From Apoderus coryli (lineage: Eukaryota; Arthropoda; Insecta; Coleoptera; Attelabidae): a stretch of DNA of 64,000 nucleotides. Within the stretch, counting starts at the first letter, position 1. The number at the start of each line of letters is the position of its first letter. The stretch covers positions 29,279,715 through 29,343,714 of the forward strand of contig OU452200.1 of assembly GCA_911728435.2 (NCBI GenBank). The letters are read 5' to 3'. Below, one piece after another: positions 1 to 59,422 of this stretch. Both the position numbers and the translations under genes were made by a program. The notes beneath the pieces were generated by a model that did not search any database, had not been told where the DNA came from, and saw only the letters and a program-made list of their open reading frames with translations.

Positions 1-1400
1 AATCCCTAGAAAATCACCCCAAGAACGAAAATATGAACAAATCCGTTTACGTTCCAAAAAATAAATGAATTAATTGAAATCCAACTCAACCCATGCGTAT
101 CCATCGGGTTTGTTTAGGTTGATAGGGAATTTTTGTTAAAGTTCTATCCGCTTGAAGGTAATTAGGTATGCTCCCGTATAATTTGGCTTTCTGGAAAGTA
201 TTTACAACAAACTACCGTGGCGCTTAACAGATTGAAATTAGATCTAGGTATAACCTGTAACCATTTCTATTTTAAATTATTTTCTTTGAGAAATAGAAAA
301 ACTGTGATTAGGTTGCAATTTTGCTCTTGTTTTAATGCGCTACTATAATTGGATTTACATCCAGGTATACAGCACCCTGAAAGCATATTAAACGCGACTA
401 AGAACCACGAATCATAACTGAAAAATCAGATACTTACCTAAAAGTCCTGCTGAATGTATTAATAATAATTATTATTAAATATACATATGTACAAACCCTC
501 GTACAATATCTAGACTGGAATTCGACGTTGCCAAATATACTCTTTCATGGCTTATCTATGGAAGGCTGTGCAACAGCTTAATTTTCTTAGCGAGGTCTAT
601 TATTTTAGGCATCAATGAATCAACGATGAATACGAAGAATAAAATCTTTAATATTTGTTGCATATTTGTAATTGTATTTCTTTATTAGTTCAATCTTCTA
701 TTCTAGGTAATAAATATTCATAATATCTGAAGTATAATAGGTACTGTTATTTTGTCTCTTATAGTATAAAAAATAGTAGATAACATCAATATGCGACACA
801 ACATGTTAACAAACATTAGATTTTTTTTAATCATAAAAACCGTTTCCCAACAAAATTCCCTAAAAAAAGACGTATTTACATTCATAGTATAGAGGAAGAG
901 CATAAAAATCACATAACTCTTTAATACATGTTACATAACATTAACATCAATTTAACTGCTGCCTAACATCGACTCTAGTTCATTAATTTAATTTTATTTA
1001 AATTTACCTTTTGAACGGTAACGCCAATTAGAATAATAAACGCTGTATTGTATATAAGGTGGGTGCCACACTATACTGCCAATGATGGAAGATAGATACT
1101 GGATATACCGGATGTCCATTATCTAATGTTGGTACCGGCGCAAGTGGCGACAACGGAAGCGGTGTTGGTAACATTTCAGACATGTCTATCCGAGTACCTT
1201 CGCCAGGCAATAAAATATAATTATTATAATAGATATTTATTTCAAATATTGATTTTATTAATAGCAGTCCAAATTCAAAAGATACCTATTGAGTATCTAT
1301 TTGGGATACCGCAAGAGTTTTTAAATTTAAACGGTTTCTTCTGTGCTATTAAAACTATCAACACACGAAATATATATATATATTTTTTTCATCAATATTT
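1..1400. other. AT-rich non-coding stretch
   Basis: No coding exon, RNA gene or recognisable repeat could be supported here. Open frames are short and have no family signature. The last ~50 bases run into a TA-rich microsatellite-like tract next to the mariner relic that follows. Confidence 0.5.
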
Positions 1401-13163: not shown

Positions 13164-13312
13164 AATCGGTTCTGTCACCCCAAAATATATGATATGCGTA
13201 ACGAAACAGAGTTTTAATAATAATTGTTATTATAAATGTATTATTTTCATTATTTCCAATAAACTAACGTAACAAACTAACTACTTTATTCTAAATTTAG
13301 AAAAAAAAGTAA

Positions 13313-13378
13313 TGCCAGAGCTAGGACTCGAATCCGAAACCTTCCGCATGCGAAGCGAATGACCTTCCAATGACCCAA
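13313..13378 (-). repeat. tRNA-Ala(CGC)-like block inside the composite repeat
   Basis: CTTCGCATGCGG gives a CGC anticodon loop and the following GGATTCGAGTCC is a slightly changed B box. The 5' acceptor strand cannot be matched, so this is repeat-borne tRNA-derived sequence and not a tRNA gene. Confidence 0.6.
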
Positions 13379-13669
13379 CAGAGACCTGGTAAGAAATATT
13401 GTATTTTATTTTTTATATATTTATATACGTTCTAACTAACCACTGGTGACATTTTAAACGCTAATTTCTCGTGAATTATGGGGGCAAATATCAAAAGTGA
13501 CCTAACGCTATAAAGCAGATAAAAATGCTTTTAAATGATGTATCAGTCGACCCCTACTGATATAGGAAAATTTAGTGATTGTGTCCACTCCTATCACAGG
13601 GCATAAGCGATTTCAACCGAAATCTAACGGCTTCATCCTAGGATTGGCCCAAAATCATATACCAAAACT

Positions 13670-19856: not shown

Positions 19857-22732
19857 TTACCACACTGCAAAAAGATAATCATTTATACTATAAGGTTCAA
19901 TCTCCAGAAGTAGAGCTTTAACCTCCTTTTTGAAAACATTTAGATTTCTAGTTTCCTTCATTTTCTTTGGCAATTTATTAAAAAGTTTTACACACATAAA
20001 ATGTGGACACGTTTCAGTCAGTGTAAGACGATGTATTGGGTATAATATATCAATTGATCTGGTGTTATATGAATGATCCACAGAAGTTTCAAAACTATTT
20101 TTATTTTTAAAAAAGAACATCAGGCACTCATACACATATAGCCCGTAAATTGTCAAAATTGATTCCTTTCTAAAATGATTTCTACAACTCTGTCTATATG
20201 TAAGGCCAGTTATAATTCTTAAAATTCGTTTCTGAGCAACGAAAATATTTTGAGTTTCTCGGTCTTTTCCCCAAAAAATTATTCCGTAACGAAGCAGTGA
20301 TTCAAAGTTCGCATAATAAACAATTTTAAGACAGTGACTATTTAGATATTTGTTAATTACTCGCACAGCAAAACATACAGAATTTAGTTTCTTTAACAGA
20401 GATCTTATATGTTCCGACCACTCTAAAAATTCATTTATTTGGATACCTAAAAGTTTTGCAGTACATTCTATCTTGAAATTATTTCCAGCAATGCACATAC
20501 TTTCTGGTTTCTGAACTCTGGAATTCTTAGTTCTAAAGAGAACGACTTTTGTTTTAGATTCATTAAGTAGTAATTTATTTTTAGTGAGCCAATCTGATGT
20601 TTTTTCATATAGTGTCGAACATTCACAAATTACATTTGCCAAGATATTTTCTCGAACTAGCAATGTTGTGTCATCAACATAATTGATGATATGCCACGAG
20701 TTTCTGTCCACACTATCGTTAATATCATTAATGTAAATTACAAACATAATTGGTCCCAATATGCTTCCCTGAGCAACCCCATACACTGTAGGCAGCACAT
20801 TCGAAGAAAAACTACCGCCAACATCATTAATATCTACCCGTTGAAATCTACCAGTCAAATAAGATTGGAACCACTCCTTTGCTTGTCCACGCACTCCATA
20901 TCTATCCATCTTATCGATAAGCAACGCTCTATCTAAACAATCATATGCCTTAGAGAGATCAAGAAAAATTCCAGCAGCTAAATTTCCGCCCTCCAATCCA
21001 TTCAAGATTGCTCGAACAAATTCAAACAATGCAGTGAATGTGTTTTTACCTTTAATATAACCATGTTGATTTTCATTTAATAGCGAATAAATAGTAAAAA
21101 AATTTATCAACCTATCAGACATGGCCATCTCGAAAAATTTCGAAAAACCGGACAAGATATTGATTGGCCTATAATTGCTGAACTCGCTCGCATCCCCATT
21201 TTTAAAAATTGGCCTTACAACTGCATGTTTTAGCTGGTCCGGAAATATTCCATGTTTAAACGAGTTATTTATAATATAACATAGTACCTTAGCTATATCG
21301 GGACTGGATAATTTTATTAAACTAGTAGGTATGTTGTCGATGCCACATGAGTGTTTATTCTTAATACGTGACGAATAGTTAAGAATCTCAGAAACGGTTG
21401 TAGGGCGAAGAAACATTGATTTATTATTTATAGGGAACGTCAGTGTATGATTACTAGCCTGAATCTTACCTAAAATGTTGGGAATTATCTCTAATAAATA
21501 TCGATTATAATTATCCGCTGTATTCTTACCCCCGTCTAAATTATGAACAGTAGGTGATTTCCCTTGAATTTCACTGCAAACTGACCACATAGATTTCATT
21601 TTATTGTCAGAATTATTAATTTTGTCTTGATATGATTTTGCACGTGTCGACCTCAATAAACCATCATATTCTTTTTTTGTAGAAACATAAAGAAGTTTAT
21701 ATTTCTGGTCCACTCTATAAGCAGTATAAAGAAAATCTAAACGTTTTTTACATTCTTCTATTTCTGGAGATGAAACCTTCTTATTTCTATTGACCGATTT
21801 AATTAATTTTTCAGGAAATGTTTGTTCAAATAATTCTGAAAACTTAGAAGAAAACAACTCCCATTGTTTATTAACATTATTTTCATCCACTTTATAAACA
21901 GGGGACCATTTTTGTTCTTTTAATTTTGATAGAAATTTTTCTTTATTTTTCTGATTAAAATTTCTCATAAAAATAGGATTAACATCTTGTACAATTTTTG
22001 TTGCAAAAAGTATTTTTTGAGCATTGTGATCCGACACATGATTTTCTATAATTTTTACCTCTATATACTCTAAATTGGTAAATATATTATCGAGACAACT
22101 TGCCGAACTCCCTGCCAGCCTTGTAAATTCTCCAATGACAAAAGGGATGTTAAAAGTTTCTGTTAATGCTAGTAGTGAAGTTCTATTTCTGTTTTCTTTC
22201 AAAAATTCTATATTAAAGTCTCCTGTAATACATAGTGCATGTCTTATATTAAAAAGAGAGTGCAGCAAGTTCTCGAAGATATCTAAAAACACATTTATGT
22301 CGCCTGCGGGTGGGCGATATATATTAACAATAAAAATTTGCAATTTACCTAAGATACACTCAATTCCTGCAATTTCAACAACATTTCTTACTGACATTTC
22401 ATTTACAAAATTTACAGGCTTACATTTAATTTCACTCCTAGCATAGATAGCTACACCACCATGTTGACCCTCATCCCTGCAAAAAGCTGACACAAGTCTA
22501 AAACCACACAAATTATATTTTGGTAATTGATTCTCACTCTTCCAGTGTTCAGAGACACAAAACACTTTGCAGTCCTCATGTTCTTGCATCATATAGTTAA
22601 GTTTATCCACTGAATTTCCTATTGATTGAACATTCTGATGTATGATCGAAATGTACGCATTACTTTCGCTATTACCATCAGTCGCTTGGTAATTTCCAGT
22701 GTTTACTGGTTGTATTTTAAAAAAATCGAATC
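19857..22732 (-). CDS. LINE ORF2: endonuclease and reverse transcriptase
   Basis: The protein performs target-primed reverse transcription. Counting from the GTG at 22610, the endonuclease catalytic motifs are GDFNIEF (near residue 130) and SDHNAQ (near 193). The RT domain has SNYRPINILS, FLDLSKAYDCLD, GVAQGSILGP and the catalytic YVDDTTLL (near 650). The frame is open well upstream of 22610 and reads ISIIHQNVQSIGNSVDKLN, the normal start of the endonuclease domain, so 22610 is not the true start. The open frame reaches a TGA at about 22733 inside the end of ORF1 and contains no upstream ATG. Translation by -1 frameshifting from ORF1 at 22718-22724 is the simplest explanation. The box is YVDD instead of the commoner YADD. 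Confidence 0.85.
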
Positions 22733-23785
22733 ATTATAATTTGTAAAGGCCTTAGATTTAGCTATCTTCGATTGGTATACTGGACATGTCACGCTTCTTG
22801 CTGAATGTTGTGTAACATTGTATTTCATTTTTGTACAATTAGGACATTTATATTCATCTGCCTTTTCAATAGGACAATCTTGTGAAGAGTGAGGTTTGCT
22901 ACATTTTGGGCAGCACTCCTTGTTTTTACAATGTTTTGCTACATGTCCAAAAGTGCTACATTTGAAGCATATGGCTACGTTAAAATATTCTCGTACATAC
23001 ACTTTGAGCAAATCGAAGCAGATAGTACCTTTTTTTAAAAACCATTTTGCTACTTCTGGAGATGCTTGAAGGATCCAATTTTCTTTGTATGGGTTTCGGC
23101 AAGGTTTTTTTACAATAACATTTATTTTGTTTCGCACTGAATATCCGAGTTCAGTTTCTATTTCTACATTTAGTCTAATAATTTCTTCTAGAAACTCATC
23201 TTCAGAGTATCCTTTTTCGATTCCTGTAATCATAAACATTGGATCTTTAATTTCTTGTTCCTTTACTTTAACATCTGTTCTTCCTTTAAATACTTGTGTA
23301 AGTTTCTCTTGTTGCTCTTTGCTATGACTTTCAATCACTAACGCTCCACTTTTGAGTTCTCTAACGCTTTTCAGCCCTCCTTCAATATTTTTCAAATCTA
23401 TTTGTTGTTTAAGTTGTTTCTTCACTTCTTTTGCGTCTGTCATATCATCTATACGAATTATAGATTCGAATTTTTTAGCTGTTTCAGGAGTTTTCCACTC
23501 ATTCGAGGTTCGATTTATATTTATTTCCGGTGTGGTATTCAAAACTTGGGCGAAACTTTTCTTCGGATTAATATTATAGCCTAAGGTTTCTCCAATGTTT
23601 TTTAATTTTTCCCCTACTTTAAAACTTAATATCAAATTTTCTTTTTCCAGGTTATCTGTTTTATGTATCAGTAATGTAAATATCTCATGAATCACATCCA
23701 AAGGTTCCTGTAGTTCAGTCTTATTCGTTCCTTCTTCCATTGTCTGACTGATTTTCCTTATTTTCGCCATTTGTTTAACATCCAT
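22703..23785 (-). CDS. LINE ORF1: gag-like zinc-knuckle RNA-binding protein
   Basis: A 360-residue protein starting at an ATG (MDVKQMAKIRKI). The first two thirds are charged. A PRE_C2HC-like region (FMITGIEKGYSEDEFLEEI) follows, then tandem knuckles: CFKCSTFGHVAKHC, CCPKCSKPHSSQDC and CPNCTKMKYNVTQH. In this family the protein binds the element RNA and packages it. The C-terminus FLKYNQ overlaps the beginning of the ORF2 reading frame in the -1 frame. Confidence 0.8.
   Translation of the reverse strand: MDVKQMAKIRKISQTMEEGTNKTELQEPLDVIHEIFTLLIHKTDNLEKENLILSFKVGEKLKNIGETLGYNINPKKSFAQVLNTTPEININRTSNEWKTPETAKKFESIIRIDDMTDAKEVKKQLKQQIDLKNIEGGLKSVRELKSGALVIESHSKEQQEKLTQVFKGRTDVKVKEQEIKDPMFMITGIEKGYSEDEFLEEIIRLNVEIETELGYSVRNKINVIVKKPCRNPYKENWILQASPEVAKWFLKKGTICFDLLKVYVREYFNVAICFKCSTFGHVAKHCKNKECCPKCSKPHSSQDCPIEKADEYKCPNCTKMKYNVTQHSARSVTCPVYQSKIAKSKAFTNYNDSIFLKYNQ
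22718..22724 (-). promoter_or_regulatory. TTTTTTA slippery heptamer between ORF1 and ORF2
   Basis: In the ORF1 frame the codons are ATT TTT TTA, so T TTT TTA is a canonical X XXY YYZ -1 frameshift site. After a -1 slip the next codons are AAA ATA CAA CCA, which lead without a stop into ORF2. The ORF1 stop TAA is 15 bases beyond the site. A downstream stimulatory structure was not evaluated. Confidence 0.55.
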
Positions 23786-29310: not shown

Positions 29311-29359
29311 TAGCAGAGCGTGGTTTCGATCCACGGACCTCTGGGTTATGGGCCCAGCA
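29311..29359 (-). tRNA. initiator tRNA-Met gene copy 1, 3' half
   Basis: The minus strand reads from the anticodon arm (GGGCCCATAACCC, anticodon CAT) through the variable loop, a T arm with GGATCGAAACC (A54 type, diagnostic of eukaryotic initiator tRNA), and the acceptor strand CTCTGCTA. The 5' half is 2.8 kb away at 32179-32213. The 12-bp TGCTGGGCCCAT is present at both ends of the intervening element. The B box is intact here, the A box is in the other half, so normal transcription is not possible. Confidence 0.85.
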
Positions 29360-32178
29360 AATTCAAATTCAAATTCAATTAATTTATTCAATATTAAAAT
29401 TACACAATAACAAGTCAGGCTATTTACAATTATATACAAATGTATGAACATAAATATATGAGAATATACTGTGGATATGTGCGGCCGACGCGAAGCAAGT
29501 CCACTCATCACACAGCAAAGAACCTTAAGGGCGGCATGTTGATAGCCTATTCTAGCCGTCGACTGTCTTATAACAGGTTGTGATAATAATCCGGTTCCTG
29601 ACTAAGTCTTCATCGGATATTGAGTCTACTTCTCAGATGATAACATGAGATTCTATGCAACGGATTGTTATTAAGCTGTAGATATGTCAGTTTAGAGTTT
29701 GATATACGGGAAAAAGCGTATAAAAACCCGCTTCAATGTTAGATAGTGTTCTGGTAGTACTGTTTTATTACCTTAAATTCTTATGGATTCTGTTCAAAAA
29801 TAGGTAGTGATTGATAAATTAATTTATGTTTAAAACGTAAATTATGCCATGCTCTGTAATGCGCAATATCACGTGTAAATGGAGACTTTGGGATTTGTTC
29901 TGTGTAAAATTTTTGCGCAATTTCCTGAATGTGCTCTGTCAAGTATTGTAAATTCAGTTGTCTATGTAGTTCTTCTATTCGTATACGTCTTGGACTATTT
30001 GATATCATACGCAACAGCTTATTTTCCATGACCATAAGTCTGGTTTTTTGTTTTTCCGATATTCCGCACCACACTGGGGCGCCATATGTCAGTATGGGCC
30101 TCAGTATACTTTTATAAATTATCATTTTGTTATTTACATTTAATAGGCTGTTGCGATTTATTAGGGGGTAAAGTTTCTGTATTGCTGCACCCGTTCGTTG
30201 TAGTAAGTGTGAGACGTGCTTTTTAAAAATTAGTTTTTTATCGAAAACTATACCTAGGTATTTAACGCAGTATTTGGGCTCTATTGCTGTATTATCTATT
30301 CTTAATTTATCCAGTATTTTACTTTGGTGAAAGTTCTTTTCTAATATGATTTGCTCGGTTTTTCCTGCATTTATTTTTATTTTCCATGTCCGGTAGTACT
30401 CTGTTAGTCTTGTCATATGTATTTTTAGAAATCTATTGGCTAAATTTGCGTTATGTGATGCTGCGTACATCGCTGTGTCGTCAGCATAAAGGGCAAGTTT
30501 GACGGTAGGGTTTTTGGGTAAGTCAGAAGTATAGAGAACGTACAACTTTGGTGCAATAACCGTGCCCTGTGGGACCCCTGCTCTTATGATACGGGATCTT
30601 GAATACGTGCTGTTTATTCTTACTGTGTAGGTCCTTTCACGTAGGTACGATTTAAGTAATGTAATCATGTTAGTCGGGACATGGATTCTATGTAATTTTG
30701 TCAGTAAACCGTCGTGCCATACAGTGTCGAAGGCTTTCTCTATATCAAGTAATACTAATGTAGTGGAAAGCCGTCGATTGAAGTTAATTGTGGCATCGTG
30801 AGCAATTTTAGATGCAAGCATTACTGTATTGTGCCCTGGTCTGAAACCGAACTGTTCATTAGGGGTAAGTTTTAATTTTCTATCAATAGAATTTAATCTG
30901 AATAATATAAGTTTTTCTGCTACTTTAGAAAGTGTATTCAGGAGAGAAATAGGGCGATAACTATTTGGGTCCGTACTATTTTTGCCAGGCTTTAAAATGG
31001 GTATAATAATAGATTTTTTCCATTCCGCAGGAAAGTATTGAAGTTTAAATATTGCGTTTATGATATAGACTAGTTGCGCAATGGCTTTTTTTGAAAGATT
31101 TTTAAGCAATATATTATCAATTTCGTCAGGACCGGGTGCTTTATTATTTGGGAGTTTTTTAATTACATTACTTATTTCTGTAGACGAGACAAGCATTTTT
31201 AATATTGTACGGTTGGGTATAGGTATGTAATCAGGAATTGCTCTGGCTTCGTTTTCAATTGTCACGTGCTCTGGTGTCGTGTTTGGCTGTGGTGAGTAGG
31301 TTCTGTACAGGTTGTTAGCTATTGCTTCCGTCTTTTGTTTGTCCGTCATGTACTCATTTTGACCTACTTTTAAAGTTGGGATTTGGGGAAAAGTTCGTCT
31401 TAATGCTTTGGTTACTTTCCATAGAGAATTATCTCTGGTGTTTAAGTTTCTAAGTTTATTTTCCCATATGATATTTCGGTATTCTTTTATCTTTGTTACA
31501 ATAGTGTGTTGTAAGTCAGTCATTCTCTGTTTGTCACGTATGTTTTGGTATCGCTGCCATTTTTTTCGAACTTTGTTTTTGAATTTTATCATATTTAATA
31601 TATCAGTCGGTAGTCGATCTTCAGCTGGTCTTTGCAAAACTTTTCTGGCTACCCTACTCCTAGCTAGGAGTATGGTTTCAGTGAGCTTCTTAACCTCATC
31701 GTCTAATTGTGACTTACTATCAATTTCATTATTAATTGAGATATTATTGTCTAAAATATTTCGATATCTGTTCCAGTTAACATTGTTATATATGTATTTG
31801 TGTCTTTTATCATCATTTATTGTCTCGTTCGTAAGTACAAATGTTATTGGATTATGGTCACTAGTCAGTTCTGTCAAAGATTGGAGATTTATATGTCTGT
31901 TATAATTTTTATTTAAAGCAATATCTATATAAGATGGTCTTGTTCTGTTGTTGGGGAAATGTGTAGGATAATCTGTGTGAATAATTTGTATAGCATTTTC
32001 AGTAGCATATTCATATATAGTATTACCTGCTCTATTACTCGTGTGATTATTCCAGAATGTATGTCTAGCATTTAGATCTCCTATGACTATTACTCTGTTG
32101 CCTAAGTTAAATAGTGAATCTAAATCCAGGTTTGTCAGACGGCGGTTAGGTGAATTATAAGTTGCTACTATTACGAGG
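29360..32178 (-). mobile_element. Jockey-type LINE A inserted in iMet gene copy 1 (5'-truncated)
   Basis: A 2.82-kb insertion in the same orientation as the tRNA. The 3' UTR is ~420 bases and ends in a TTTGAATTTGAATTT tail at the tRNA junction. The 5' junction cuts into the endonuclease domain, so ORF1 and the N-terminus of ORF2 are absent, as expected from incomplete reverse transcription. Perfect 12-bp target duplications (29348-29359 and 32179-32190) confirm insertion directly into the tRNA gene. Confidence 0.85.
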
Positions 32179-32207
32179 ATGGGCCCAGCACGCTTCCACT
32201 GCGCCAC
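29781..32207 (-). CDS. LINE A ORF2 (truncated): endonuclease part and reverse transcriptase
   Basis: An uninterrupted 808-codon frame. The element-derived part begins ILVIVATYNSPNRR, inside the endonuclease domain, and keeps GDLNARHTFW and the catalytic SDHNP. The RT has SYRPISLLNTLSK, LLDIEKAFDTVWHDG, AGVPQGTVIAPKLY and the catalytic YADDT. The first nine residues (VAQWKRAGP) are encoded by the tRNA 5' half fused in frame by chance; there is no ATG. Sequence is closely related to LINE B's ORF2 (roughly 60% identical by eye), so the two are the same family but not copies of one insertion. Its own endonuclease is incomplete, so it cannot be autonomous. Confidence 0.8.
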   Translation of the reverse strand: MAQWKRAGPILVIVATYNSPNRRLTNLDLDSLFNLGNRVIVIGDLNARHTFWNNHTSNRAGNTIYEYATENAIQIIHTDYPTHFPNNRTRPSYIDIALNKNYNRHINLQSLTELTSDHNPITFVLTNETINDDKRHKYIYNNVNWNRYRNILDNNISINNEIDSKSQLDDEVKKLTETILLARSRVARKVLQRPAEDRLPTDILNMIKFKNKVRKKWQRYQNIRDKQRMTDLQHTIVTKIKEYRNIIWENKLRNLNTRDNSLWKVTKALRRTFPQIPTLKVGQNEYMTDKQKTEAIANNLYRTYSPQPNTTPEHVTIENEARAIPDYIPIPNRTILKMLVSSTEISNVIKKLPNNKAPGPDEIDNILLKNLSKKAIAQLVYIINAIFKLQYFPAEWKKSIIIPILKPGKNSTDPNSYRPISLLNTLSKVAEKLILFRLNSIDRKLKLTPNEQFGFRPGHNTVMLASKIAHDATINFNRRLSTTLVLLDIEKAFDTVWHDGLLTKLHRIHVPTNMITLLKSYLRERTYTVRINSTYSRSRIIRAGVPQGTVIAPKLYVLYTSDLPKNPTVKLALYADDTAMYAASHNANLANRFLKIHMTRLTEYYRTWKIKINAGKTEQIILEKNFHQSKILDKLRIDNTAIEPKYCVKYLGIVFDKKLIFKKHVSHLLQRTGAAIQKLYPLINRNSLLNVNNKMIIYKSILRPILTYGAPVWCGISEKQKTRLMVMENKLLRMISNSPRRIRIEELHRQLNLQYLTEHIQEIAQKFYTEQIPKSPFTRDIAHYRAWHNLRFKHKLIYQSLPIFEQNP

Positions 32208-32213
32208 TCTGCT
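32179..32213 (-). tRNA. initiator tRNA-Met gene copy 1, 5' half
   Basis: The minus strand reads AGCAGAGTGGCGCAGTGGAA and on to the anticodon stem TGCTGGGCCCAT. It begins with A1 of the AGCAGAG acceptor strand, pairs with CTCTGCT of the 3' half, and holds a good A box (TGGCGCAGTGG). Confidence 0.85.
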
Positions 32214-32560
32214 CTTGGACGAAATAGAAGTAAAAATATTTTATCCGGGATAAAGAGTTTCTATGTATTACCTTCTGTCCGGTAAAAAGAAAGGGTTCTT
32301 GTGACAACAGAAAAAAGGAAAACTTTTATGTAGGTATCTCCAGGTAGAGCAAATTTCTATAGTTGAACCTATAACGTAGATGACAGTAGACAGTGTACAT
32401 TTAAGTAATAACTTAGATTCCTGTATCAAGTTCGATATTAATTTGTTGTCATTTTGCCATGTCGTTAATAGGTCGCACTCAAACAAAAAAAAAACCAAAA
32501 TTTATATAGAATTTGGTTGGCTAGGTGTCGAAGTTTTATAATAAATTTTTTTGTAGATAG
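32214..32560. repeat. right flank of tandem iMet unit 1
   Basis: Aligns by eye with 40107-40470: CTTGGACGAAATA, then TGTGACAACAGAAAAAA, GGTCGCACTCAAA and GAGGTGTCGACGTTTTATAATAA-type blocks. It is the upstream region of the tRNA gene in each unit. Confidence 0.75.
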
Positions 32561-32579
32561 CGGTCTTTGGACAACTTCA

Positions 32580-32750
32580 ACAGACTGAAAAATAATGTAA
32601 TTTTTCTGATTGTACCTTGTGAAATATATAAAAGCCACATGGAGCATGACCTGGTGAATGATCTAGCAATAACTGGTTGTATTTATCTAGAAACGTCTTG
32701 ATAGAAAGAGGTCCAGGCAGCACGTTGTATTTATGGAGAACCAGGATCTG
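32580..32750 (-). pseudogene. mariner-type fragment, third related copy
   Basis: Shares AAGCCACATGGAGCATGACC and TATTTATCTAGAAACGTCTTG with the fragments at 28.8 and 34.2 kb. It may be the remains of another tandem unit whose tRNA part is lost. Confidence 0.5.
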
Positions 32751-32759
32751 AACAAGAAC

Positions 32760-33430
32760 TGTAAGGTTTGATTATTAGTTTAACACTCTGAAATTGGGCA
32801 AAAGCTTATTCGAGCTTTTTTAGGGTCTCGGTGAAGTTTGGTCCTTCCAATGGATTTATTGACATTGAGGTTCAGATTCGTAATTTTACAAGTTTTAAAG
32901 GAATTCACAGTGGCGCGGTTGTTCAATCGCGAAAATTTTAGGCACGAGATTCGCAGACTATTTTGATTTGTTAAAGTTTTAACGCACATTTCAACGATCC
33001 ATTCTATGTCCATGCCTACAGATATAACAGTCGCAGATTGCCTAGTTTTTCAATATTTTCGTCCGTTTTTGAAGTAGTAATTAAAGCCGAGCGAGAGCCA
33101 TCTGGAACGTCTTTCCAACCATTTTGGATATGCATTACCATATACTTGCAAAAAAAAAAAAGAAATATGTGTACTGATTTTTCAAAATTTCTCAGCTATT
33201 ACAGATACATACAGGAAATCACAGATAGGATGTGTTCATAGACTCTGGCGCCGCGGGGCGTGTAACTCGCGAGAATATTTCACGCTACAGAGCTGCCTTT
33301 GAAACCTATGAATATAATTCGACTAAACTATAGGATGCAGTGAAAACGGGGACTTATGTCGAACGGACCCTTTAAAGAAACTAAAGCAAAGCAGCTAACC
33401 AAAAATTTTAACTTTTTTATTTCCGCATAT
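32760..33430. other. non-coding stretch between units
   Basis: No signature recognised apart from short AT-rich frames. Confidence 0.35.
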
Positions 33431-33438
33431 AGTATCGT

Positions 33439-33660
33439 GTGGTGCACAAGATAGTCGAGTCTATTTTCATAGAAGAAAACATGACTGGGAACTTCTATTT
33501 CATACTTTTAGAAACGTTGCCTCGGTTTGTAAGGAGAGGTGCCCAAGTGTGGCCCTCAAGATCTCAAGATTTAACGCCACTGGACTTCTCTTTTGGGGGT
33601 ACCTACTTAAAACCTAAAATTAAAATTAAACACTCAGCCAGAAGACATTGATGACCTCAA
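33439..33660 (+). pseudogene. mariner/transposase fragment, plus strand
   Basis: The frame has VWPSRSQDLTPLDFSFGG followed by TYLKPKIK, the degenerate WPxRSPDLTPLDFFLWGYLK block with the third catalytic Asp in PLDF. A homologous copy is at about 40921-41110. Only the C-terminal part is present. Confidence 0.6.
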
Positions 33661-34011
33661 AACTAGAATAAACCTAGAGTCTGTAGCAACATTTTAAACG
33701 GACTCAGACCAATTATGATATACAAGAAGAAACATTGAATAAGAAAACAGACTGCACCTTTATAATGTTTGGATAACGCAAGTATTCGTTGCCACTTAAT
33801 TTCATAAGTAATATAATGTTTTCATTTCTTAGATAGCATAACAAATCTTGGTGTGCGCTTATGAAAGCGTTCTGAACTACTTCGGAACTGCCTCCGCGAA
33901 AAAGGCTATAGAGTAAATATTAAAATATGCCTACTGTAAGCTATAATAATAATTATTATTACTAATGTCAAAATCATTTTTAAATATTTTTTGACAATTT
34001 TCTTGTAAGCT

Positions 34012-34819
34012 TTTGGATTAAAGCATCTCTAATATGATTTGTTTGACAAAATATCCAGTATTATGGCTGCTGGATGAATATACACTATTATGAAATAATG
34101 TAAAGTCTTCTGACAACTTCAACGAACTGAAATAATGTACATTTTTATTCTGATTCTACCCTGGGGCATAAAAGCCACATGGTGCAAGATCGGGTGAATG
34201 TGAATGTACTAACTTGTTGTATTTATCTAGAAACGTCTTGATAGAAAAAGATCCAGGCAGCGCCTTGTATTTATGGAGAACCAGTGACTTTTTCTACCCA
34301 ATTCAAGCCGTTTTGTAGTTGTATTCTCACGGATCCTCTGAACTTAGCTATAAGACATTATAGGTACACTAATTAAATCTACACCTTATCCAACAGAATT
34401 TCAAAAAACATCGAGTTGATTTCAAAAAGTGTTAATTGAATTCCAAAATAGTTAATTCAATTTCAAAAAGTGTCATATTAATACAATAGCTTGGGTATAA
34501 GTTTTTTGTCATTTGCTTTCTGTTTTTTGTGTTGTAAGAGAAAAATTATAAAATTTTTAGTTCGTTTAACAGTTTATTATTGTTTGCTGGATAAACAGTT
34601 ATAAATATTAATGCACTTGCACTATCTGACACTATATTAATTATAGCAAAATTAAAAAATTGCGGATAAATAACTTTACAGTACTGAGATTGGAATAGTA
34701 TCTATATAAACAGCACTGAGTGCGGAAAAGTGTAACTTTCCGCACTAAAAAACTGCGGAAAAGAGCACATTACCGCAAGCTCGTAGAAACAAATAATTAC
34801 AATATAAAAAAAAAATGAA
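34012..34819. repeat. left flank of tandem iMet unit 2
   Basis: Counterpart of 28550-29310. It contains the mariner fragment at 34130-34290 (minus strand). A ten-T pol III terminator on the tRNA strand is at 34806-34815. Confidence 0.75.
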
Positions 34820-34865
34820 TAGCAGAGCGTGGTTTCGATCCACGGACCTCTGGGTTATGGGCCCA
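34820..34865 (-). tRNA. initiator tRNA-Met gene copy 2, 3' half
   Basis: Same T arm, variable loop and acceptor strand as copy 1, ending CTCTGCTA and followed by a T-run. It begins with the target duplication TGGGCCCATAACCCA, which is the whole anticodon stem-loop. The B box is intact. Confidence 0.85.
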
Positions 34866-35318
34866 ATTCAATTTTTTTTTTTTTTTCAATCAAAAATTTT
34901 TATTTCATACAGTTACATAACAGCATTACAAACATTTATCTTAAAACTAAATATATATACAATATTTACAAAACAGAAGTGAGCATGACTATATACTACA
35001 AAAATATGTACATGATGTCGATGCAGCAGGAACCTCGCGTCGCGGCCAGGCAGGCATGGTCTTAAGCCTTTCAAGTACAAATGTTTGTTCATTATTAGTC
35101 TGAGGTAGGCTCGGCTCCAACCTAGGCTTTACCCAAGCAATGCGTCCGCAATCGGCAGTGAATGCGAAATATTTATGTAACATTTTTAAGCGACTTGTCT
35201 GTTAAGGCTTCTGAGTAATAACGCAGGAAAAATTAGGAAAAACCTGCTTAAAGGGGGTGTCGAGTCGATTGTCTGTTTGCAGCGTTGCGAAAGATAAATC
35301 TAGCGATGCGCTGTTTGT

Positions 35319-38009
35319 CTAAGGCCTATTATCCAAGTAGATGGGTAATCTCTGATAAATTAGGGGATGTTTAAAATTGAGATTATCCCTCTCTCGGTGT
35401 CGGGTCATGTCCTGTGTCAGTGGTGACTTGTGGATGTCTGTGGTGTAATATTTCTGTGCTATGTCAGTCACGTAGTCTGTAATATATTGTATGTTTGCCC
35501 GTCTATGCAGTTCATCGATGCGGGTGTAACGATCACTGCTTGTCGCATGCCGTAATATTTTGTTTTCCATACGCAGCAGTCGTAATCGCTGCGTATCGGA
35601 CATGCTACACCAGACGGGAGCAGCGTAAGTCAGTATCGGTCTTAGTACAGTCTTGTATAAAGTAATTTTATTGTCGGTCGTCAGTACACTGTTTTTATTT
35701 ATAAGTGGATAAAGACTGTGCACTGCGCTGTAGGTCCTCTGTATACTGTGACTCGTATGCGGCTTGAAACTCAGTGTTCGATCGAGCTTCACTCCCAGAT
35801 GAGTCACAGGTTGTCGTTGTGGATCGATTATGGCGTCGCCTATTTTTAGTTTTTCGAATATTTTGGTATTCTTGTATTTTTTTGTCAGTATGATTTGTTC
35901 TGTCTTGGTCGGATTTATCTTTATTTTCCAAGTTTTATAGTAGTCTTCAAGTCGCGTCATGTGGATTCGTATATGTCGATTAGCTGCGTTGGCGTGGTAG
36001 CTGTGTGTGTAAAGGGTCGTGTCGTCGGCGTATAGGGCAAGCTTAGTGTGGGGATATTTGGGGATATCAGAAGTATAAAGGGTGTACAACTTAGGAGCGA
36101 GAACTGTGCCTTGGGGCACGCCTGCTTTTAGAGTTCGGAGGCGAGATGAGGTGCTATTTATTCGCACTTTGAAAGTTCTGTCTGAAAGGTACGACTTCAG
36201 TAGTGTTAGCAGATGTCCAGGTATATTGAGGCGGAGCAGTTTGGTCAGAAGTCCTTCGTGCCACACTCTGTCAAATGCCTTTTCCATGTCAAGCAGCACT
36301 AAGTTAGTTACTTGCTGCTTGTTAAAGGCAAGTTTGGCGTCATGAACTATCTTTGATGTAAGCATGACAGTGCTGTGGCCTGATCTGAATCCAAACTGCT
36401 CTTGTGGTGTTAGTCTAAGCCTGTCGTCTGTTTTGTTTAGTCTTGTAAGGATAATTTTTTCAGTGATTTTGGACATGGTATTTAGGAGGGAGATGGGTCT
36501 ATAGCTGTTGGGGTCTTGTGGAGGTTTGCCGGGTTTTAGAAAGGGAATAACAATGGCTTCCTTCCACTTTTTGGGGAAGTATTGTAGTTTTAATATGGCG
36601 TTTATTATATATGTAGTTTGGACCAATGCTTTTCTACTCATGTTCTTAAGTAAAAGATTATCTATGGCATCTGGCCCTGGAGCCTTATTGTTGGGGAGTT
36701 TTTTAATGATTTGTAGGATTTCTTGTGGGGTGGAAAGTAACTTGTGCATTAGGTTAGGGGGGCAGTCTATTGTGGTAGGAATTTGTGAGCATTGGTGTTC
36801 AATGTCGTTATGTTCTTGTCTGGAATTAGGTAGAGGCGTATGCACCCTGTATAAGTGGTTTGCAAATGTCTCTACCTTCTCCCTGTCCGTTACCGAGTTT
36901 CTGTCATTGACTGTCAGTGTTGGTATTTGTGGGTATGTCCGTTTTAGGGCTTTCATCAGCTTCCACAAGGAGTTGTCTCGTACATTCAGATCACGTAGTT
37001 TGTCTGCCCATACCTTGTTTTTGTGTTCCTTGATCCTGTTAGTAATTGCAATTTGTAGTTCTTTAAGTTGTTCCCTGTCATTTGCATGTCTCGTTCGCTG
37101 CCACCTTTTTCGAATTCGATTTTTGAATTTGATTAGATTCAAAATATCGGGTGGCAGCCTGTCTTGTGCTGGCCTTTGGCGAACTTTTTGAGCAACTTTG
37201 TCCCTAGTTTTCTGTATTATTTCCGTCAGTGTATCCACCTCCCTGTCTATCTCCTGTCTGGTCCGTATGTCATTGTTCAGTGTTATTTGTCTGTCCAGTA
37301 ACCTTCTGTATTTAGCCCAGTCTGTGTTTTTGTAGACGTAAATGACTTTTTCATTTTTGTTAATCACTTGCTGATTCAGTTCGAACATAATCGGGTTGTG
37401 ATCACTACTAAGTTCATTAAGGGATTTTAAGTTTATGTGTCGGTTATAGTTTTTGTTCAGGACAATGTCAATGTACGTCGGTCTTCCCCTGTTAGGTGGT
37501 ATGTGTGTGGGCACGTCTGAATGCACGACCTGTATATCCTGTTCATTTATATAGTCCTGGAGTTTGAGTCCGTTATGGTTGTTATTATGGTTACCCCACT
37601 GCACATGTCGGCAATTGAGGTCCCCAAAGACTATGATTTTCTGGCCTAGCTCGAACATGGCATCCAGGTCCCTGTCCGTCAGTCGTCTGTTCGGTGAATG
37701 GTAGGCAGCTATCAGTATCAGTCCTGTAGCGAGCCTAATACTAATTGTCTCTATTCCGTTTTGTATTTGCGGGATAACGGTGTGAGGAACGGAGTTTTTA
37801 ATGAGGACAGCTATGCCCCTTTTCCCAAACGTTGCGTCATTCCTGTATACTGTATAGTTACGCAGTCGCACTCTGTGTCTGTCTGTCAGTTTTGTCTCGC
37901 TGATTGCCATAATGTCGATGCTGTGCGTTAAGATGAAATTCAGCAATTCTGGGATTTTTTGTCCCAGAGAGTTTGCATTCCACGAGCAAAGTTTGAGCGC
38001 GAAAAGGCT
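35319..38009 (-). CDS. LINE B ORF2: endonuclease and reverse transcriptase
   Basis: Complete enzyme of target-primed reverse transcription. The frame is open directly after the ORF1 stop and reads KLCSWNANSLGQKIPELLNF, the normal endonuclease start, so the domain begins well before the nominal start at 37946. Motifs: AISETKL, GDLNCRHVQWG, SDHNP in the endonuclease; SYRPISLLNTMSK, LLDMEKAFDRVWHEG, AGVPQGTVLAPKLY and YADDT in the RT. The rest is the C-terminal domain (TYAAPVWCSMSDTQ). No stops or frameshifts were seen. It lies in the same frame as ORF1, separated by one TGA (38010-38012), so readthrough or reinitiation is needed; the first in-frame ATG (DIMAIS) lies inside the endonuclease domain. 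Confidence 0.85.
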   Translation of the reverse strand, partial: SLFALKLCSWNANSLGQKIPELLNFILTHSIDIMAISETKLTDRHRVRLRNYTVYRNDATFGKRGIAVLIKNSVPHTVIPQIQNGIETISIRLATGLILIAAYHSPNRRLTDRDLDAMFELGQKIIVFGDLNCRHVQWGNHNNNHNGLKLQDYINEQDIQVVHSDVPTHIPPNRGRPTYIDIVLNKNYNRHINLKSLNELSSDHNPIMFELNQQVINKNEKVIYVYKNTDWAKYRRLLDRQITLNNDIRTRQEIDREVDTLTEIIQKTRDKVAQKVRQRPAQDRLPPDILNLIKFKNRIRKRWQRTRHANDREQLKELQIAITNRIKEHKNKVWADKLRDLNVRDNSLWKLMKALKRTYPQIPTLTVNDRNSVTDREKVETFANHLYRVHTPLPNSRQEHNDIEHQCSQIPTTIDCPPNLMHKLLSTPQEILQIIKKLPNNKAPGPDAIDNLLLKNMSRKALVQTTYIINAILKLQYFPKKWKEAIVIPFLKPGKPPQDPNSYRPISLLNTMSKITEKIILTRLNKTDDRLRLTPQEQFGFRSGHSTVMLTSKIVHDAKLAFNKQQVTNLVLLDMEKAFDRVWHEGLLTKLLRLNIPGHLLTLLKSYLSDRTFKVRINSTSSRLRTLKAGVPQGTVLAPKLYTLYTSDIPKYPHTKLALYADDTTLYTHSYHANAANRHIRIHMTRLEDYYKTWKIKINPTKTEQIILTKKYKNTKIFEKLKIGDAIIDPQRQPVTHLGVKLDRTLSFKPHTSHSIQRTYSAVHSLYPLINKNSVLTTDNKITLYKTVLRPILTYAAPVWCSMSDTQRLRLLRMENKILRHATSSDRYTRIDELHRRANIQYITDYVTDIAQKYYTTDIHKSPLTQDMTRHRERDNLNFKHPLIYQRLPIYLDNRP

Positions 38010-39788
38010 TCAAAAGTTATGTTTTGGCAGCTCATTTTGTGCAAACTCTTGGAGAACGCACAGTTTCGTCATTTTGTCTGTAACCCCTGTAAGCATTGCG
38101 TCTAGTTTCATTAAAGCCTTAACAGCTTCACTAAGATTGATCTTATTAGCAATTTGTGCCGAAACCCGACCCAAAGCTTGTAGGTCACCCATAATATTGA
38201 TTGGAGTTTGACTTACCAAAGGGGTGGTGTCATCTCTCGCGGGTTGGCTGGCCTGTGTTGTTGGTGCCGGTACTGTTTGTTGGCTAGTTGGTTTGTTAGT
38301 CCACGGGTTGGTTGTCGGTAAGGGCGCTGGTGCGTATGTCTTTTTAGTCGGTCGTTTTGTCTGCGTCTCTGTCTGTCGCTGTATATATTCCTTCCGACGA
38401 AGGAACACCTCGCAGCCTGTATAGTTGGCGGGGTGTGCGCCGCCGCAATTTGCGCAAACAGCAGGGGTGTCCCTGGTTTTTGTGCAGGTGTTGGTCAAGT
38501 GATTTTGGCCGCACTTCAGGCATTTCGGTGTGCGGCCGCAGTTGGCTGTGGCGTGTCCCCATGCCTGGCATTGGCGGCATTGTGTAATGCGGTTTTCATT
38601 TTTTCGCCGTTCCCACGTAACGCGGGTATTAAGCACTACGCTGGCTTGTGCGTTTAAAGTTCTTAGAGTGTAGTTGTTTGTGGTCACGACGAGGAATAAT
38701 GGTCTGCCAGGGGTTTTCATCCTGAAGACTCTAGAAACCGATATGTCCAAATCTTCTTTGAGATAGTACTTTACGTCCTCCTCGTCCACACCAGACAAGC
38801 CCCGAATAACAAAGGCGTGCGTTTTTTCTTCGGGGAGAGTGTAAGTGTGAAAGTCTACGTTATTGTCAGTCAGTAGAGTCTGTTTATAGGACTTGTACTC
38901 TGTAATGTCCTTAATGTATAGCATTGTGGTCCCTGCTGCATATTTTAGCGTGTAACCGTGCTGAATTTGCTGATTTAATTCCTGGACCAGCTGTCGGTGA
39001 TCAGTAGCTCTACCTCGGAGAACGATAGGCGGTATCCTCTGGTTTTTCCCTCTCGATTGATGAGCCAGCTGTTCAGTATCGCTCTCGCTGGAATCTGTCG
39101 CTGTTGCCGCGCGTTTATTTTTCCTTTTTTGAGGCGAATTTGGGCTGTTTGCTGTCCGCTTCAGGGTCCTCTTTGTAGCATTAGCAACATCTATTGATGT
39201 CGGGCTTCCAGGCAGCTCTTCGTTGGGTTTAAGACTGCTGAACCGGTTTCTCGTTAGAGGCGGTGGTGATTTCGGCGATCGCCTCATCAGTAGTTTAGAC
39301 AGAGTTGCGGTATGTTTGGGTTTCTGAAACCCGTTGACGTCGGTAATGGAAGTTGCCTGGTTCAGTATTAAAGGTGGTGTGTGTACTTCGATGGCAGAAA
39401 AATTGGGACCTTGGGTATTAATATCCATTGGGACCGAAAGGTCGTTTATTTTGTCCTTAACGAACCTTTCGCTGGACTCCATCGAAGACGTCATGATGTC
39501 CGTTAGATTATCCACTGCTTCATTTTGGCTTGATGCGACAGAGTCGGAAGGGCTGACTTTCCTGTGTCCTGTGTCGATTTTTGACGGCACTTTTGCAAGT
39601 GTTCTCCCTAGACGCGTGTGCGCATCCTGTCTATGCTTGCTCCAGTTGTGTTTTATTAGCTCTCTGTCGGTATTTTCGTCATCATTGTATAGTAGCGACT
39701 TATAGTTTTCGCATACAGTGCATGGCTTCGCTGACTTGTCTCTTTTATTATTTTTGTCAGGATTTTTTGGGATAGCCCCTTTAGACAC
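38010..39788 (-). CDS. LINE B ORF1: gag-like zinc-knuckle protein
   Basis: A 592-codon frame. The N-terminal half is charged and low-complexity. A PRE_C2HC-like domain follows (FVIRGLSGVDEEDVKYYLKE), then three knuckles: CRQCQAWGHATANC, CLKCGQNHLTNTC and CANCGGAHPANYTGC. A Pro/Thr/Gln-rich linker and a helical end (ELPKHNF) complete it. PRE_C2HC plus knuckles is typical of Jockey/X-element ORF1 proteins that bind element RNA. The frame opens with GTG at 39788; an ATG at 39811-39813 is one base out of frame because of a six-C run, so this copy may have a single-base indel at its start. Confidence 0.8.
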   Translation of the reverse strand: MSKGAIPKNPDKNNKRDKSAKPCTVCENYKSLLYNDDENTDRELIKHNWSKHRQDAHTRLGRTLAKVPSKIDTGHRKVSPSDSVASSQNEAVDNLTDIMTSSMESSERFVKDKINDLSVPMDINTQGPNFSAIEVHTPPLILNQATSITDVNGFQKPKHTATLSKLLMRRSPKSPPPLTRNRFSSLKPNEELPGSPTSIDVANATKRTLKRTANSPNSPQKRKNKRAATATDSSESDTEQLAHQSRGKNQRIPPIVLRGRATDHRQLVQELNQQIQHGYTLKYAAGTTMLYIKDITEYKSYKQTLLTDNNVDFHTYTLPEEKTHAFVIRGLSGVDEEDVKYYLKEDLDISVSRVFRMKTPGRPLFLVVTTNNYTLRTLNAQASVVLNTRVTWERRKNENRITQCRQCQAWGHATANCGRTPKCLKCGQNHLTNTCTKTRDTPAVCANCGGAHPANYTGCEVFLRRKEYIQRQTETQTKRPTKKTYAPAPLPTTNPWTNKPTSQQTVPAPTTQASQPARDDTTPLVSQTPINIMGDLQALGRVSAQIANKINLSEAVKALMKLDAMLTGVTDKMTKLCVLQEFAQNELPKHNF

Positions 39789-40038
39789 TATGTTTACCCT
39801 GGGGGGAGGACATTTTCACTTCTCTAATAGCCCCTGTACCCTACTCAGTTCAGGCACAGGGCATTTACACGTTTTTCTATTAAAATATTTATTTAAATAT
39901 GTATTTTATACACTATTTTAATAGTTTAATAGTATTTAGTTTTTCCACTGTAAGTACCGTTTCTACTATCGCACTACCTATACACCTATGTGATAGCGTG
40001 CGGAGGCGGTGTGTATACTTTGGCGGTCGGCCAAATAC

Positions 40039-40065
40039 CCGCATGCGAAGCGCACGCTCTATCAA
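40039..40065 (-). repeat. tRNA-Ala-like stretch at the 5' end of LINE B
   Basis: Minus strand TTGATAGAGCGTGCGCTTCG followed by CATGCGG directly abuts the iMet target duplication. It equals the D/anticodon arm of the composite repeats at 49.65 and 59.19 kb, then diverges. It may be a 5' transduction or template switch, or part of the element. Confidence 0.6.
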
Positions 40066-40106
40066 TGGGTTATGGGCCCAGCACGCTTCCACTGCGCCAC
40101 TCTGCT
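40066..40106 (-). tRNA. initiator tRNA-Met gene copy 2, 5' half
   Basis: Acceptor AGCAGAG, A box TGGCGCAGTGG and the complete anticodon stem-loop up to ...CATAACCCA. The upstream CTTGGACGAAATA flank matches unit 1. Confidence 0.85.
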
Positions 40107-49190: not shown

Positions 49191-49883
49191 CTTTTACTTT
49201 CCCGCATAAGGAAAGTAGTGTGAACCCGCTAAAAAAAAATTGAGATAAAGGTGGATATAACCCTTTTGAAGTTGCTTGAGACGATTAAGAAAATGTCAAG
49301 ATGGAAGTCTGTCTTTCTGTCGGTGTGTCTGTATGTATTCTTCCACGATAGCGCCTAAACGCTTTAACCAATTGAGCTAAATTTGAGGGAGTCCTAGGAT
49401 GAAGCCATTAGTTTTTAGTTGAAATCGCTTGACCCCTGTGATACGGGTGGACACAACCGCCAAAATTTCAAATAGCAGTAGATGTCGAATGAGACATCAT
49501 TTTAAAGCATTTTTCATCTGCTTTACAGCGATAGGTTATTTTTCATATTTGTCCCCATTATTCTCGAGAATATTGCGTTTAATTTCACCAGTTAGTTAGT
49601 TGGAACCTATAACTCTTATTAGAATATAATAAATTAGATAAAGGGTTTTTGGTGCATTAATAGAGCGTGCGCTTCGCATGCGGAAGGTTCTGGGTTCGAA
49701 TCCCAGCTATGGATAATTTTTTTTTTTAATTTTTGAATACAGTAGTTAGTTTATTGGAAATAAAGAAAATAATACTATTATAAGAAAAATTATTATTAAA
49801 ATTCTGTTTCGTTACGCAGGTTATAAATTCTTGATTATATTATATCTTGTCGGGACAGTTTTGGGGCGCCACAACCGATTTTA
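49191..49883 (+). mobile_element. complete tRNA-like composite repeat, copy 2
   Basis: Same order as copy 1 in the opposite orientation: TTTTACTTTCCCGCATAAGG hairpin region, CTGTCTTTCTGTCGGTG, GATAGCGCCTAAACGC, the tRNA-Ala-like block (49651-49713) with a perfect B box GGTTCGAATCC at 49693-49703, a T-run, ATTCTGTTTCGTTACGC, CTTGTCGGGACAG and ACAACCG end block. On the opposite strand a TAGCTCAATTGG A box is at 49368-49379. Confidence 0.7.
49651..49713 (+). repeat. tRNA-Ala(CGC)-like block in copy 2
   Basis: Contains GCGCTTCGCATGCGG (anticodon CGC) and GGTTCGAATCCC, followed by a T-run about 10 bases later. The 5' acceptor strand is absent, so it is not a functional tRNA gene, although its B box is intact. 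Confidence 0.65.
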
Positions 49884-58710: not shown

Positions 58711-59422
58711 CTTTTACTTTCCCGGACAGGGAAAGTATTGTGGACGCGCTAAAAACATTTTGAGATAAGGACGTATATAACGATTTCGAAGTTTCTTGAG
58801 ACAATTAAGACCATTTCCAAATGAAAGTCTATCTGTGGGTCTGTGTATGCGTGTCTATGTGTGTATTCTTCCACGATAGCGCCTAAACGCTTTAACCAAT
58901 TGAAATTGAAATTTTGATGTATGGGGTTTCGGGGAGTCCTAGGATGAACCGAGGGTGAACCCTTTAGTTTTGGTTCAAATCGCTTTAGCAAAATTTTCAA
59001 ATAGCAGTAGGGGTCGAGTGATACATCATTTTTATTAGTATTTTTCTGCGTTACATCGATAGGTTACTTTTGATAATTGCCCCCATAGTTCTCGAGGAAA
59101 TTGAGTTTAAAATTTTCCCATTTAGGTAATTGGGATCTATAATTCTTATTAGAATATAATAGTCATTTGATAAAGGGTTTTTGGCGTCATTGATAGAGTG
59201 CGCTTCGCATGCGGAAGGTTCTGGGTTCGAATCCCAACTCTGCCAACATTTTTTTTCTAATTTTTGAATAAATTAGTTAGTTTGTTACATTAGTTTATTG
59301 GAAATAATGATAATAATACAATAATAATAGTAATTAATAAAATTCTGTTTCGTTACGCAGGTCATATATTTTTGATTATATTATATCTTGTCGGGAAGGT
59401 TTTTCGCCGACAACCGATTTTT
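58711..59422 (+). mobile_element. complete tRNA-like composite repeat, copy 3
   Basis: Same layout as the 49.2-kb copy. It has the clearest hairpin (ACTTTCCCGGACAGGGAAAGT), a tRNA-Ala-like block at 59183-59245 with perfect B box GGTTCGAATCC (59224-59234) and end AACTCTGCCA, then a T8 run. The opposite-strand A box has degenerated here. Confidence 0.7.
59183..59245 (+). repeat. tRNA-Ala(CGC)-like block in copy 3
   Basis: GTGCGCTTCGCATGCGG, GGTTCGAATCCC and a 3' acceptor-like CTCTGCC-A. The complementary 5' GGCAGAG is not present upstream, so no cloverleaf can close. Confidence 0.6.

Follow-up and report, generated by a model that had tools for sequence, protein, structure and literature searches.

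Target choice by long interspersed nuclear elements (LINEs) is usually ascribed to sequence preference of the element's endonuclease, as for elements of ribosomal DNA (rDNA) and telomeres. Here we analyse a window of 64,000 nucleotides from the beetle Apoderus coryli (contig OU452200.1, positions 29,279,715 to 29,343,714), in which two initiator tRNA-Met (iMet) genes are each split by a LINE, together with copies of the same lineage elsewhere in that genome. Most copies with readable flanks lie inside genes transcribed by RNA polymerase III (Pol III) or in tRNA-like sequence, at comparable internal positions, in sense orientation and often with a clear target duplication; the same element is found in different targets, and an unrelated LINE group lacks the pattern. 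We consider it likely that this diverse Jockey-type lineage nicks the template strand about 24–38 bp into Pol III genes, with the Pol III initiation machinery as its probable guide.

The closest described systems differ from this one. In the available part of its table, a review of retroelements aimed at Pol III genes places their insertions upstream or downstream of the gene (PMC5911963). Among them, and like the lineage described here, the dictyostelid TRE5, TRE3, NLTR-A and NLTR-B elements, which are L1-type retrotransposons without long terminal repeats (non-LTR), are directed to Pol III genes, and the accessible text adds positions 37–41 bp upstream of 5S genes as targets of TRE5, but these elements insert outside the gene, 2–64 bp upstream or 40–150 bp downstream (PMC5006619, PMC5911963). 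The ORF1 (first open reading frame, ORF) protein of TRE5-A contacts TFIIIB, according to the same partial source (PMC5911963), a precedent for guidance by the machinery. Unlike the dictyostelid elements as described there, the lineage in A. coryli is Jockey-type, resides in an animal genome, includes U6 among its targets and cuts inside the RNA-coding part, where all of its 5S, U6, iMet, tRNA-Glu and tRNA-Gly insertions lie, whereas dictyostelid insertions keep a defined spacing from the gene. Dada DNA transposons, in the portions of the reports at hand, also insert inside tRNA, 5S and U6 genes, with the anticodon region as one hot spot (PMC3706591, PMC8869645).

Two split initiator tRNA genes

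Both iMet genes of the window lie on the minus strand, and in both the anticodon arm is interrupted by a LINE in sense orientation; we regard these split genes with targeted LINE insertions as a confirmed observation. In copy 1, the 3' half (29311–29359) and the 5' half (32179–32213) each include one copy of a 12-bp duplication, TGCTGGGCCCAT (29348–29359 and 32179–32190; 11 bp if the first T is counted as element tail). Between them lies LINE copy 1 (29360–32178), 5' truncated within the endonuclease domain and ending in a tail of TTGAAT-type repeats, with an ORF2 (29781–32177) that retains part of the endonuclease and a complete reverse transcriptase match without an internal stop. In copy 2, the 3' half (34820–34865) and the 5' half (40066–40106) share a 15-bp duplication, TGGGCCCATAACCCA (34851–34865 and 40066–40080), and the total insert (34866–40065) consists of the near full-length LINE copy 2 (34866–40038), whose 3' end is A15 followed by TTGAAT, and of 27 nt of tRNA-Ala(CGC)-like sequence (40039–40065) between the duplication and the true 5' end of the LINE. 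The ORF2 of copy 2 (35319–38006, 895 amino acids) encodes an endonuclease of the apurinic/apyrimidinic (AP) type and a reverse transcriptase, with no RNase H match and no internal stop; its ORF1 (38010–39788, 592 amino acids) has cysteine-rich, CCHC-like knuckles, recognised by eye, and no Pfam match. All of these features are on the minus strand.

When the halves are joined, both genes yield an identical 72-nt tRNA-Met(CAT), although ARAGORN detected no tRNA in the unjoined window and Rfam missed the split tRNAs. The duplications occupy positions 24..35 (copy 1) and 27..41 (copy 2) of the tRNA, so that the first-strand junctions are 3 bp apart. The original prediction, that two related but distinct LINEs, one truncated and one near full length, had cut both tRNAs in the anticodon arm in the same orientation, with duplications of 12 and 15 bp and 3' junctions within about 3 bp, is thus borne out.

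Pfam recognised only Exo_endo_phos families and RVT_1 in the two ORF2s. The Jockey clade is defined by an AP endonuclease and a reverse transcriptase with no RNase H, and the domain content predicted for the window LINEs fits that clade; some named relatives among the matches listed are called BS, X-element or jockey. That the elements are non-LTR retrotransposons is supported by the endonuclease/reverse transcriptase ORF, the variable 5' truncation and the variable length of the duplications. Within the genome, ORF2 matches to copy 2 range from 43 to 100% identity, the 43% match being one decayed copy. Protein relatives, among 120 listed of 230 and 802 matches, reach at most 49% identity and come without genome context; one of them (P0025) is catalogued as a protein of a weevil's Rickettsia endosymbiont, an entry that may contain DNA of the host. 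Beyond these, viral contigs gave no LINE relative or one short fragment (L016), phages none, plasmids three weak reverse transcriptases, and GTDB genomes 58 related loci with a best-segment identity of at most 37% (28% for the longest match); none of these searches supplied useful flanks, and the iMet pattern in viral contigs found 15 tRNAs, bacterial-type by eye, of which none was split.

Two hits at one site had been predicted to be independent and not due to chance, and both parts hold. With at most one mismatch allowed, the window contains 3 matches to an 11-base segment of the target, against 0.13 expected. The insertions are independent because the two ORF2s share only 58% identity over 803 residues and their silent sites are about saturated (40 of 152 four-fold sites identical), whereas the paralogous DNA flanking the two genes is far closer (84–93% identity downstream and 76–92% upstream, in matched pieces). 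A 58-row tree pairs the two copies with support of 100, but it was built from database proteins, with no reference elements, and excludes same-genome elements, some of which are closer to copy 2. The paralogy of the two iMet units could suggest that a single insertion was copied, by gene conversion or duplication, or that the assembly is at fault; we give this a negligible probability, as the elements, their truncation points and their duplications all differ, and two more split iMet genes are present on other contigs. Gene conversion in particular, named at the outset as what would undo the prediction, is ruled out by the near-saturated four-fold sites. Many iMet genes on different contigs (loci L075–L097) have similar upstream flanks, as if a larger repeat unit had spread.

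The 27-nt piece at the 5' end of copy 2, named tRNA-Ala(CGC)-like by eye, is also present in repeats of the window; such dispersed repeats (13300–13380, 49640–49710 and 59180–59250) resemble one target class of the lineage. We rejected the piece as part of the element, since a full-length copy on contig C5, whose ORF2 is 99% identical, lacks it and begins at GTATTTGGCC, straight after other target sequence. It would instead represent a 5' transduction of a former target. Because the C5 copy lacks the piece, and because the piece ends within a base of the end of the Ala-like duplication at another insertion (L129), the parent of copy 2 was most likely inserted in an Ala-like target, with transcription starting within or upstream of that target. 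Template switching onto a tRNA is a less likely origin, given the same coincidence with the duplication end at L129.

Targets of the lineage

When the genome (428 Mb, 129 contigs) was searched with the ORF2 of copy 2, 51 of 27,708 first-look candidates were scored. They yielded 52 matches, which correspond to about 49 elements (three matches were taken as second pieces). The 3' flanks were read for 43 of these and for a further split iMet gene absent from the match list; of these 44, 42 were readable, L140 and L155 being excluded from the denominator because the 3' end of the element was not placed or was lost. In 38 of the 42, the flank is a Pol III gene (21) or sequence judged tRNA-like by eye (17), and all 38 insertions are in sense. 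The genes are 5S (10), U6 (5), iMet (4), tRNA-Glu (1, identified by Rfam on an intact copy of the 5' flank and by ARAGORN on the joined site) and tRNA-Gly-GCC (1, by eye); the tRNA-like sequences, recognised by an anticodon-like loop, a B-box-like core and a T run, comprise Ala-like repeats (8), a second tRNA-like repeat (7) and degenerate pieces (2). Without the 17 tRNA-like flanks the strict count is 21/42. The original prediction of a site-targeted Jockey-type LINE therefore stands, but its restriction to iMet does not: the 3'-flank test proposed for it found 38 of 42 flanks outside iMet, and iMet-only targeting is rejected. Of those 38, however, 34 are 5S, U6, other tRNA or tRNA-like sequence (17 by eye) cut at a comparable position, which suggests that the target is the class of genes transcribed by Pol III and not one DNA sequence.

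The same conclusion can be approached from the genes, with counts that are lower bounds. A query of iMet 3' parts, with up to 3 mismatches allowed, found 18 genes, all exact, of which 4 are split and 14 intact. The LINE in the third split gene (contig C16) is 74% identical to copy 2 over 157 ORF2 residues, and that in the fourth (C11) is 93–98% identical to copy 2 in DNA, with a duplication of only 3–4 bp, by eye. In the third gene (L096 and L097, C16:9180994-9183318) the 5' half also shows a G-to-T change, and the locus contains a nested ORF of 324 codons that was judged mariner-like by eye. Among 74 exact copies of the 5S stretch from +30, 52 are preceded by the normal GCC; in the remaining 22, all read, a LINE tail comes first, with the junction at +29|30 to within one base. 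Ten of these had come from the ORF2 search and 12 were picked from the gene side, the kinship of the latter tails being judged by eye; at two split 5S copies (L206 and L208) only some 60 bases resemble the element. For U6, the 18 exact 3' parts found all lie in a stretch of about 100 kb of contig C16, 8 of them split (L124, L125, L138, L139, L142 and L211–L213) and 10 intact (L164, L209, L210 and L214–L220). The upstream pieces of L211–L213 are identical and L139 looks alike, so these are probably one amplified unit, and three, probably four, of the split U6 genes are amplified copies. Stretches of N in U6-like sequence (L125, L164) may hide further sites from pattern searches. The gene at L125 seems to hold two tandem LINEs, as the 5' flank of L165 is the tail of another LINE followed by the U6 motif AAATTG.

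A clear duplication was found in 12 of 20 flank pairs. In 5S it is CGTTCTCGTCC (+30..+40, in three elements), in U6 GAACGATACAGAGA (+34..+47, one element, the other U6 junctions being at about +27 to +38) and in tRNA-Glu TCTCACCCAGGAG (33..45); six tRNA-like repeats have duplications of 12–14 bp, with cut positions, counted by hand, near 24 or 30, and one more duplication is at a non-Pol III site. Near-identical elements are found in different targets. When 3' ends were compared over 456–751 bp, the tRNA-Glu and U6 elements were 99.9% identical (751 bp), U6 elements and elements in tRNA-like sequence were 97.9, 98.9 and 99.6% identical, iMet copy 1 was 99% identical to copies in the second repeat and 100% to the element at the non-Pol III site L130, iMet copy 2 was 97–98% identical to elements in Ala-like targets and 97.9% to that at L116 (also non-Pol III), and the U6 copy L138 was 99.5% identical to the non-Pol III L137.

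Probable guidance of the insertions

Another conceivable explanation is an endonuclease that recognises short sequences contained in these multicopy genes, in the way that R1-like elements target rDNA. The junction is indeed fixed to a base or a few per gene type (+30 in all 22 split 5S copies), and GCGTGC lies immediately 5' of the cut in both iMet and the Ala-like repeat, which match at 9 of the 20 bases surrounding it. Nevertheless, we think recognition of this kind unlikely, because elements 99.9% identical over 751 bp occupy both tRNA-Glu and U6, and because 20-base cut-site windows of the six target types agree at 2–9 of 20 positions, where about 5 are expected by chance, with 5S and U6 agreeing at only 2. 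Genes of three promoter types are hit with no evident common cut-site motif; what 5S, tRNA and U6 genes share is TFIIIB and Pol III, and not promoters or cut-site sequence, so the machinery probably places the element.

Under such guidance, insertion would proceed by target-primed reverse transcription, in sense and inside the RNA-coding part of the gene. Target-primed reverse transcription is the mechanism of AP-endonuclease LINEs. Counted from the beginning of the RNA-coding sequence, the first nick, on the template strand, falls at about 24–38 bp; the second is 11–15 bp downstream of the first, the fourth split iMet gene (3–4 bp) being an exception. The element would be positioned by TFIIIB or Pol III, through its ORF1 or ORF2 protein, rather than by a sequence-specific endonuclease, and the 27-nt Ala-like piece suggests that its transcripts may begin further upstream, within the host gene that it splits. 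The observed first nicks, about 24–38 from the mature RNA end, are counted from mature ends; since transcription of tRNA genes begins a few bases before these, the nick would be roughly 30–40 from the start of transcription. A stricter version, to which we give an even chance, is that TFIIIB or Pol III acts as a ruler, holding the element's ribonucleoprotein such that the template strand would be nicked some 30–40 bp beyond the start irrespective of sequence, both in genes of all three promoter types and in repeats derived from tRNAs.

As a control we used an unrelated LINE group of the window, taking 20 of its 50 matches, all with an (ATT)n tail, and reading roughly 110–270 bp beyond the tail. 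By a fixed rule that a 5S, U6 or B-box motif adjoin the element, 0 of 20 control flanks scored, as compared to 24 of 40 loci of the Jockey-type lineage (L116–L155), or 28 of 42 once the four iMet copies are included. The stretches searched were longer for the lineage, but its matches are no more than tens of bases away from the junction. Rfam found no matches in the control flanks. Fisher's test against the control gave p = 1.8e-7 for the mechanical rule, 1.2e-12 with the by-eye classes and 3.4e-5 for the strict 21/42, values that are too small because copies in arrays are not independent. The control LINE itself (19857–23785, minus strand) has two ORFs without internal stops, and its four full-length ORF2 copies, on four contigs, are about 100% identical, so it was recently active. 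These data bear on survivorship, whereby insertion would be loose and only copies in damage-tolerant multicopy genes would persist. The targets are multicopy and 4 of 42 copies lie elsewhere, but survivorship leaves the fixed positions and the 38/38 sense orientation unexplained, and the control group, with none of 20 copies in such genes, persists elsewhere; we thus hold it to be very improbable.

Several points weigh against this explanation. The targeting is not absolute, because 4 of 42 flanks (L116, L118, L130 and L137) are not Pol III-like, and one of these (L130) has a clean 13-bp duplication. The cut position varies (24–33 in tRNAs, 30 in 5S, about 27–38 in U6), and some pairs of cut sites agree at 9 of 20 positions, above the 5 expected. 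Rfam scored 0 of the 17 by-eye tRNA-like flanks as tRNA, even at E values up to 1, and ARAGORN at default settings called 0 of 6 joined tRNA-like sites. The census copies are the best-scoring and not a random sample, as 51 of 27,708 candidates were scored, and arrays inflate counts through duplication. The fixed rule was written after the lineage flanks had been seen, a looser B-box motif has a match in 1 of the 20 control flanks, some 110 bp beyond the tail, and the clean Rfam control counts for 5S and U6 only, because Rfam also misses half tRNAs. Finally, in the available part of a study of Tribolium, the Jockey-like elements of T. castaneum are not associated with 5S genes (PMC11202950). 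ARAGORN at default called 1 of the 12 joined sites overall (tRNA-Glu); a relaxed run was set aside, as its calls were inconsistent and extended to the non-Pol III L130.

Comparison with known systems

Because elements that are almost the same are inserted at comparable points within 5S, U6 and tRNA genes, the host complex that these genes share is a natural candidate guide, and such guidance is testable in an animal. The splitting of 4/18 iMet, 22/74 5S and 8/18 U6 copies counted is a burden for essential gene families.

The zebrafish elements Mutsu, Keno and Dewa are of Tx1/L1 type, not Jockey. They are target-specific non-LTR elements of small RNA genes (5S, U2 and a tRNA-Leu spacer, respectively) but, in the available text, have one named target each, unlike the lineage described here (PMC3706591). 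The Dada elements differ in being DDE DNA transposons with 6–7 bp duplications whose families mostly keep to their own gene, whose insertions in the anticodon area are opposite to the tRNA and which also hit U1, as the accessible parts of the reports have it (PMC3706591, PMC8869645); the window elements have a reverse transcriptase and duplications of 11–15 bp. Among the matches listed from the open-licence literature, we found none that describes insertion of a single non-LTR lineage within Pol III genes of all three kinds, and the available parts of three further papers held nothing bearing on the point (PMC3747384, PMC6562904, PMC5014426).

A parallel may come from another beetle. In T. freemani, Jockey-like LINEs of about 5 kb regularly interrupt 5S-linked arrays, and the first 30 bp are missing from 32 of 113 5S copies, exclusively in arrays containing Jockey elements; in T. 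castaneum, about 20 copies are short of 30 bp at the opposite end. The available part of that study presents the LINEs in terms of array organisation and pseudogenes, without target specificity or tRNA or U6 targets (PMC11202950). Insertion at +30, as found in all split 5S copies of A. coryli, would produce 5S copies shortened in this way and thus offers a simple origin for those described, in the part of the study at hand, from T. freemani (PMC11202950).

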